Below the pieces are notes generated by a model that was not told the origin of the DNA, did not search any database, and worked only from the letters and a program-made list of their open reading frames with translations. Below, in pieces: positions 23,387-24,638 of a DNA stretch of 64,000 nt; the stretch's first letter is position 1; each line of letters starts with the position of its first letter. The stretch is from the NCBI GenBank assembly GCA_039819165.1, contig JBCBSM010000001.1:992001-1056000 (forward strand), read 5' to 3'. Position numbers and translations under genes: made by a program. This DNA is from Planctomycetota bacterium. GTDB lineage: Bacteria > Planctomycetota > Phycisphaerae > Phycisphaerales > UBA1924.

Positions 23387-23533
23387 GGGGTAATGCCTCC
23401 TGGGTGCGGGCCGCGTCGGCAGCCGGTGTGGTTCTCCGCAGCTAGAGACGGAGCCGATGGCCCGGCGCGTCGTGTCGGACGAAGAAATTCGCCCTAGACT
23501 CTGGTTCGCGCGACAGTCCCCAACGGAGCCCGC

Positions 23534-24638
23534 ATGCACTTCGAAGCCCACCAGCCGGTCATCGACGACCTCGAGGCGCGGATCTTGACCATCCGCGACT
23601 CTCTTTAACTACGACCAGAAGCACGAGCGGCTCGGCGAGCTCGAGGCCAAGATGGGCGATGCGGCGTTCTGGGACGATCCGGCGGCCGCCCAGGACGTCG
23701 TCGGCGAGCTGAAGCTTATCAAGGCCCAGATCGGCCCGGTCGACGACGTCGTGGGCGCCTTCGACGACGCCAAGGTCGCCTACGAGATGGCCCGCGAGGG
23801 CGACGACGCCGACCTGCTCACCGAAGCCGACGAGGCGCTGCACGCCATCCAGGGCCAGATGGAGAAGGTCGAGCTGCAGAGCCTGCTCAGCGGCGCGCAC
23901 GACCACCGCGACTGCTTCTTCACGATCTCGGCCGGCGACGGCGGCACCGAGGCCAACGACTGGGCCGAGATGCTGCTGCGGATGTACCTCTACTACTTCG
24001 AGAACATGGGCTGGAAGGTCGAAGAGGTCAGCAAGACCTTCGGCACCGAGGTCGGCGTCGACCGCGTGACGCTGCACATCAAGGGGCCGTTCGCCTTCGG
24101 CTACCTCAACTGCGAACGGGGCAGCCACCGGCTCGCCCGCGTCAGCCCGTTCAACGCCCAGGGCAAGCGGCAGACGAGCTTCGCCACCGTCGACGTCACG
24201 CCCGAATTCGAGGAGGCCGACGTCGAGATCCCCGACAAGGACCTGGAGATCACCTTCTTTGCGCGCTCGAGCGGCCCGGGCGGCCAGAACGTCAACAAGG
24301 TGGCGTCGGCCTGCCGCGTGGTGCACACGCCCACGGGCCTGATGTTCGTCGCCAGCACGCACCGCGACCAGCCGCAGAACAAGCGGCAGGCGCTCACGCT
24401 GCTGCAGGCCAAGCTCGAGCAGATCGAGGAGGAGAAGCGGCAGGCCGAGATCAAGGAGGCCGCCGGCGGCGACCTCGGCCGCGGGTGGGGCACCCAGATC
24501 CGCAGCTACGTGCTCTACGACAACCGCGTGAAGGACCACCGCACGAGCGTCGAGGCCAACCCCACCGAGGTGCTCAACGGCAAGATCGAGAAATTCATCG
24601 ATGCCGAGCTGAAGCGGCGGCGCTCGGAAAAGAACTAG
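23534..24638 (+). CDS. prfB: Peptide chain release factor 2 with programmed +1 frameshift
   Basis: The product is 367 residues, made by joining 24 codons from ATG 23534 to CTT (23603-23605) with the frame that resumes at AAC 23607. The RF2 tripeptide SPF appears in RLARVSPFNAQG and the hydrolysis motif GGQ in SGPGGQNVNKV, so this is RF2, not RF1. RF2 terminates at UGA and UAA. In frame zero the CTT is followed by TAA; ribosomes must slip +1 to read L-N-Y-D. The site sits exactly where most bacterial prfB genes carry CTTTGAC, but here the stop is UAA. The upstream gene on the other strand starts 147 bases away. Confidence 0.93.
23600..23609 (+). promoter_or_regulatory. prfB autoregulatory frameshift site, UAA variant
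   Basis: TCT CTT TAA C: slippery CTT followed by in-frame TAA and then C, as at canonical prfB sites apart from UAA replacing UGA. No AGGGGG-type internal Shine-Dalgarno sequence is seen in the 20 bases upstream, unlike E. coli. Removing one T restores an uninterrupted RF2 reading frame. Confidence 0.82.

Follow-up and report, generated by a model that had tools for sequence, protein, structure and literature searches.

A predicted, conserved hairpin in the place of the internal Shine-Dalgarno sequence at a prfB frameshift site with UAA

How does a ribosome change frame at a prfB site that lacks two of the usual features of such sites? The prfB site is the standard example of +1 frameshifting stimulated by a Shine-Dalgarno (SD) sequence and is described as almost invariant. 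In the 64,000-nucleotide stretch of DNA analysed here (the window), prfB shares with E. coli and most bacteria (AGGGGG UAU CUU UGA C) the short ORF1, the CTT, the stop followed by C, the RF2 body in the +1 frame and the position in the gene, but its stop is UAA, it has no SD-like stimulator and a conserved hairpin lies directly upstream. The site works like the known prfB frameshift, minus UGA and the SD. Order, class, genus and family below refer to the taxa of the window's own genome. The features of the locus are as follows.

23525..23528, + strand: GGAG, SD-like sequence of the start site (from the sequence), 5 nt upstream of the prfB ORF1 ATG; not a frameshift stimulator
23534..23608, + strand: prfB ORF1, 24 codons and then the in-frame stop TAA
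23573..23575, + strand: GAG, optional outer extension of the stem, pairing with 23599-23601 across a G.A mismatch
23577..23583, + strand: left arm of the predicted hairpin, CGCGGAT, from folding and comparison of relatives
23584..23590, + strand: hairpin loop, CTTGACC, variable among relatives at third codon positions
23591..23597, + strand: right arm of the hairpin, ATCCGCG, ending 5 nt before CTT, roughly at the SD position of other bacteria
23600..23602, + strand: TCT, the codon that occupies the E site once CTT has entered the P site; present at 46 of 55 sites of the order
23603..23609, + strand: shift site CTT TAA C (slippery codon, stop and +4 C), read from the sequence
23607..24638, + strand: RF2 body in the +1 frame, ending at TAG; above the cut-off of TIGR00020

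The frame layout can be read directly from the DNA. Translation from the ATG at 23534 gives MHFEAHQPVIDDLEARILTIRDSL and then the stop, with CTT at 23603-23605, TAA at 23606-23608 and C at 23609; the +1 frame stays open from 23607 up to the TAG at 24636-24638. The RF2 body scored 382.9 bits against NCBIfam TIGR00020 (cut-off 370) and far under the cut-offs of the RF1 models, confirming the original prediction of a prfB frameshift site at CTT TAA C with RF2 in the +1 frame. The earliest ATG, GTG or TTG of the RF2 frame is at 23652, so a slip is required for reading L-N-Y-D. As expected of a prfB frameshift gene, a short ORF1 precedes an RF2 body that lies in the +1 frame, and the CTT T slippery sequence and the C after the stop were invariant in the 55 aligned sites of the order. 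Two hallmarks are missing: the RF2-specific stop UGA, in place of which the window has TAA, and an internal SD-like stimulator just 5' of CTT. At seven loci (L124, L125, L127, L148, L151, L154, L157) TGG stands in place of TCT before CTT, with the hairpin or GGGA retained.

To place the stop codon among relatives, we used a sample of 60 relatives and the window's own genome, which held 60 RF2 loci: 55 aligned frameshift sites, one at a contig end and four uninterrupted genes. The contig-end locus (L019), omitted from the alignment since the end lay too near the site, has a whole hairpin and the stop TGA. TAA was found at 38 of the 55 aligned sites and TGA at 17, in line with the prediction that UAA replaces UGA here. 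All seven genus members (the window's genome and six others) carried TAA, as did 23 sites in the rest of the family, against four with TGA; other families of the order were mixed, and one of them, f4, had TGA at 6/6 sites. An exact arm-plus-site pattern, searched in 241 genomes of the order, identified TAA in 98 and TGA in 65; the remaining 78 matched neither version, their genes being spelled otherwise, uninterrupted or missing. No genome appeared in both lists, and the backwards control gave one match. Among the sites read outside the order TAA was rarer: one of 58 in the rest of the class had it, and none of 15 beyond the class. A gene tree built from 126 distinct full-length RF2 sequences required at least 15 switches between TAA and TGA, and the stop can differ between species within one genus (g77, g18); switching looks nearly neutral. 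Among the 120 contexts listed by the pattern search described below, TAA accompanied 1 of 31 G arms, 39 of 68 C arms and 2 of 21 T arms at the wobble base, a relation confounded with ancestry.

UAA at the prfB slip site is a known variant, unusually frequent in this order. As far as the available text of Prince et al. (2025; PMC12421855) goes, TAA occurs in 1.4% of 8,164 frameshift prfB genes and TAG never, TAA is said not to be broadly fixed in clades and the SD is described as hyper-conserved; the consensus given in the GeneTack text (PMC3711429) is YTT_TRA_C. The TAA sites of Prince et al. resemble ours in having CTTTAA as the premature stop, but here TAA is found in 98 of the 163 order genomes that have this arm and site and in 7/7 genus members, and the SD is gone. 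Since UAA has already been described and TAA/TGA changed so many times, the rewired loop special to this lineage that had been put forward is not needed.

The original prediction had further noted no internal SD, and this held across the order. No AGGGGG-like stimulator was apparent: at the 55 order sites the predicted anti-SD pairing of the 15 nt before CTT had a median of +0.4 kcal/mol, compared with -10.7 kcal/mol for E. coli-type AGGGGG. A covariance model was also built from the order. Median SD energies were -4.0 kcal/mol for model matches in other orders and -5.4 outside the class, and median hairpin energies were -13.4 in this order, -13.4 in other orders, -12.4 at class sites without a model match and -5.5 outside the class, all of these medians including one locus (L176) taken at a wrong CTTTGAT, its true site being AAGGAC TCT CTT TGA C. 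SD loss in the order is thus seen from the sequences. In most other-order sites GGGA lies within the right arm and could still serve as a weak SD. An altered anti-SD was ruled out: the 3' end of the genome's own 16S rRNA, GGATCACCTCCTTTC, retains the normal CACCTCC. A normal anti-SD, together with the GGAG at the prfB start (23525-23528), indicates that SD use as such has not been lost.

The original prediction had also offered unusually efficient slippage, which may apply, but the sequences point to a specific substitute stimulator, an upstream hairpin at 23577-23597 that was absent from that prediction. The 7-bp hairpin CGCGGAT(CTTGACC)ATCCGCG, with the optional outer GAG/CTC, was predicted to fold at -14.5 kcal/mol (z -3.89), with 0 of 200 shuffles as good. 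It was retained in a 140-nt fold, the total energy of which was unexceptional (z -1.24). Relatives share a block in which the nucleotides themselves are conserved, GAGGCGCGGAT NNNNNNN ATCCGCGACTCT CTTTRAC. When the ten-pair structure was laid on 51 distinct order sequences, 98.4% of cells were paired, and shifting it by as many as 3 columns left at most 47.5% paired. At two pairs both partners had changed in compensation, in one sequence each. In the outer extension, the outermost pair failed in five of these sequences and the middle pair in one. All seven stem pairs formed at 53 of 55 order sites and at 37 of 40 model matches in other orders, and none of 14 sites outside the class formed more than four. 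Prediction and covariation (below) both support a stable hairpin adjacent to the E site, with 5 nt between the 7-bp stem and CTT. Rfam gave three matches, the best at E 0.4 and far below gathering scores, and a known Rfam element was rejected. The loop itself contains a stop in the RF2 frame (TGA or TAA, at 23586-23588 in the window), which might block ribosomes arriving in that frame; 47 of the 55 sites in the order have it, but only 10 of the 40 model matches read from other orders.

Covariation was evaluated on two samples. The first comprised 113 class sites, namely the 55 order sites, 40 chosen by the covariance model and 18 chosen for not matching it. Because such a model prefers paired sequences, a fairer test was a pattern search of named genomes in which bases 17/35 and the loop were free and the other stem bases fixed; it returned at least 120 contexts, with 80 titles listed, mostly of Phycisphaerae, Phycisphaerales, Phycisphaeraceae or Planctomycetota MAGs, and many of these agree with the Phycisphaerales named in the original prediction. 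Among the 120 listed contexts pair 17/35 formed in 119 (20,000 shuffles: mean 71.7, maximum 89), as G-C in 67, C-G in 30, G-U in 18, A-U in three and U-G in one, the remaining context having A.C. Positions 17 and 35 are the third bases of Ala GCN and Arg CGN codons, and changes there are therefore silent. In the 113 class sites 17/35 formed in 107 (5,000 shuffles: mean 57.9, maximum 77) and the second wobble pair, 20/32, in 104 (shuffled mean 95.3, maximum 102). The order alone showed no covariation beyond shuffles: its stem hardly varies, and shuffles of the 55 sites also reached 55/55 at both wobble pairs. Neither did the 18 class sites without a model match (12 versus 10.9, and 9 versus 7.9). 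The RF2 tree (126 sequences) showed no fewer than 5 changes in column 17 and 12 in column 35; it separated three independent C/G swaps of 17/35, all in step and in the same direction, a number too small for a sign test (p 0.25, with 2-3 usable pairs).

Codon use gave evidence of the same kind. In 28 full-length genes of the order the third base was a single letter in 93-100% at stem codons and 61-75% at loop codons; in these genes 14 conserved Ala codons averaged 64% (maximum 89%) and 16 conserved Arg codons 61% (maximum 82%). Against synonymous shuffles, sites of the order had a median folding-energy z of -2.09, with 4 of 39 in the best 1%; for other orders the median was -1.93, with 8 of 38 in the best 1%. 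Folding energy discriminates weakly here because R-I-x-x-I-R nearly writes four of the seven pairs. Taken together, the counts support selection on pairing; covariation shows a structure, not its function.

How the hairpin is distributed relative to the interruption of prfB was then apparent from the model matches. Of 397 class genomes 247 had a match: 88 of the 98 that belong to the order and 159 of the 299 that do not (the order total of 98 was counted from the listing, and 130 further unmatched genomes were taken as outside the order). The hairpin is linked to FRAMESHIFTING: 10 of the 98 order genomes lacked a match, and in all ten prfB was uninterrupted (G049, G053, G057, G391, G192, G222, G232, G270, G291, G420). 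Twelve uninterrupted genes retained 2-6 of the 7 stem pairs, with pairs 16/36, 17/35 and 20/32 forming in two, six and seven of them; another uninterrupted gene, L160, lies outside this set. Frameshifting has been lost repeatedly in the order, each time with an uninterrupted prfB (L015, L058, L059, L062, L302-L308). Relatives with an uninterrupted gene had been named as a check on the frameshift; the interruption with TAA held in 7/7 genus members, and the uninterrupted genes that do exist in the order are separate losses. In G026 nothing reached the RF2 cut-off, and two genome searches at E 1e-60 left 7 of 130 and 6 of 109 genomes unmatched.

Beyond the order, the loci that we read came from three sets: 40 of the 159 model matches in other orders, 20 unmatched genomes of the class and 20 genomes outside the class. 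The class genomes without a match had interrupted genes in 18 of 20 cases, nine with 6-7 pairs and nine with five or fewer; these nine broken stems mostly carry GGGA or AAGGA, and AAGGAC was found in three of the genomes. Outside the class 15 of the 20 genes read were interrupted, with TGA in 15/15, and most had an AAGGA-, AGGGA- or GGGGG-like SD and lacked this stem (1-4 of 7 pairs in 14 interrupted sites, L176 left out). A phylum sample gave 14 model matches in 294 genomes, 13 of them in the order. The sampled lineages suggest a path from AAGGAC or AGGGAC outside the class, through CGGGAC within the arm at most other-order sites, to CGCGAC and the hairpin alone in this order.

Some records depart from this distribution. 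A genome of the same phylum but outside the class (G685, locus L100) accounts for the one match of the phylum sample that falls outside the order, a weak one: a 5-bp hairpin with C-G at the second wobble pair beside CTTTGAC, which is either an outlying relative or of separate origin. Two frameshift sites in class family f16 (L145, L149) lack the standard stem, but hairpins of -12.4 and -13.8 kcal/mol are predicted there at other positions. The interrupted prfB of L162, a locus outside the class, carries CTTTGAC with neither an SD-like sequence nor a predicted hairpin in the 33 nt upstream, and a site may thus manage without either. Several records with the motif are titled Singulisphaera, Isosphaera or Actinomycetota (L181, L207, L254 and others) and one stands under Leptolyngbyales; they are probably mislabelled metagenome bins.

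We consider it probable that prfB undergoes a genuine programmed +1 frameshift here and that a cis-acting RNA hairpin, in place of an internal SD, stimulates it. Counted from CTT as the P-site codon, the right arm spans -12 to -6, the region expected for an SD helix on the ribosome. We infer the following course. Ribosomes translating ORF1 would open the hairpin; with CTT in the P site and the stop in the A site, it would refold behind the ribosome in the space of the SD:anti-SD duplex. When release factor is scarce, the strained peptidyl-tRNA would slip from CUU to UUU and AAC would be read, giving full-length RF2; when it is plentiful, termination would yield a 24-residue peptide. UAA is read by RF1 and RF2, and UGA by RF2 alone. 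Given these codon specificities, a loop with UAA would respond to RF1 as well as RF2, sensing their sum, and the UGA loop of sister lineages would sense RF2 alone. An absence of RF1, which would make UAA an RF2-only codon, was ruled out: besides prfB, the window's own genome yielded one gene with a PCRF domain, which is RF1-like and has RF1 models as its best match, at 353.9 and 367.6 bits, below the NCBIfam cut-offs of 423.25 and 400.

A synthetic parallel supports the proposed role of the hairpin. In the text available from Huang, Cho and Chang (2018; PMC6321510), an upstream hairpin placed before CUUUGA gave ~60% of the +1 stimulation of an SD on 70S ribosomes, an effect seen only without RF2 and termed functional mimicry of the SD duplex. 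The likeness to the window lies in a hairpin upstream, next to the E site, in place of the SD:anti-SD duplex on 70S ribosomes; their stem is a designed one of 12 bp in a reporter, whereas that described here is natural, of 7 bp, and conserved with compensatory changes across a bacterial class. By this analogy, the window motif is what a natural version of their hairpin would look like. In the open-licence PMC literature we recognised no account of a natural hairpin upstream of the prfB slip site, which leaves absence from print unproven. In the main text of PMC12421855 the terms 'hairpin', 'secondary structure' and 'Planctomycet' are absent and 'stem-loop' appears only in a dnaX reference.

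Could the interruption or the palindrome be spurious? A sequencing error or a dead gene is scarcely credible: the identical CTT TAA C in 7/7 genus members, and TAA at 38/55 aligned order sites, rules out a base-call error, the RF2 body is intact and above the RF2 cut-off, and the single further gene with a PCRF domain that the genome yielded is RF1-like. It is also very unlikely that protein constraint or codon bias alone produced the palindrome as a by-product of the peptide E-A-R-I-x-x-I-R-D-S-L. Arg-Ile and Ile-Arg codons do give CGNAT and ATNCG, so that four pairs come almost free, and the 12 uninterrupted genes keep 2-6 of 7 pairs. However, the wobble pairs formed in only six and seven of those 12 genes, the wobble bases of the stem are far more fixed than elsewhere in the gene, and 17/35 is paired in 119 of the 120 listed contexts and 107 of 113 class sites. 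Constraint alone was rejected, as these wobble-pair counts speak strongly against it.

Two other readings accept both the frameshift and the stem, and we hold each of them to be unlikely, to a similar degree. In one, the hairpin is real and has another purpose, such as mRNA stability, ribosome pausing or binding of RF2 or another protein, and CTT TAA C slips without a stimulator. Covariation, which shows structure and not function, would be compatible with this, as would L162 and the weak slippage of CUUUGA in vitro even without stable flanking structures that the text of PMC6321510 describes. The fixed distance from the shift site, at the SD position, argues against it, as does the absence of the motif from 10 of 98 order genomes, all ten with an uninterrupted prfB. 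The other reading makes rewired feedback the main novelty, with a UAA loop sensing RF1 plus RF2. It finds support in the exact-pattern counts (TAA 98, TGA 65 of 241 order genomes) and in the presence of an RF1 gene, but TAA is known elsewhere, TAA and TGA have interchanged at least 15 times on the RF2 gene tree and can differ between species of one genus, and the missing SD is left unexplained.

A hairpin as the frameshift stimulator remains the reading that we prefer. We know of no earlier natural case of an upstream hairpin driving +1 frameshifting in bacteria. On balance, though with less assurance than for the hairpin as stimulator at this site, we favour the view that the class has replaced an rRNA-dependent stimulator by a self-contained mRNA hairpin, the first such natural case known, along a path from an SD-like sequence through a CGGGAC arm to the CGCGAC hairpin alone, with UAA common and the loop hence reading RF1 plus RF2. 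The novelty seems to lie in the natural hairpin in the place of the SD and in the high frequency of TAA in the order, UAA itself being already documented. If this is true, searches for recoding sites by SD plus CTTTGA could miss whole clades, and prfB genes in such clades may be miscalled as broken or truncated. The essential element would then be a duplex at the mRNA exit, whether or not rRNA takes part in it, and these bacteria would offer ready-made natural variants for testing the exit-duplex idea.
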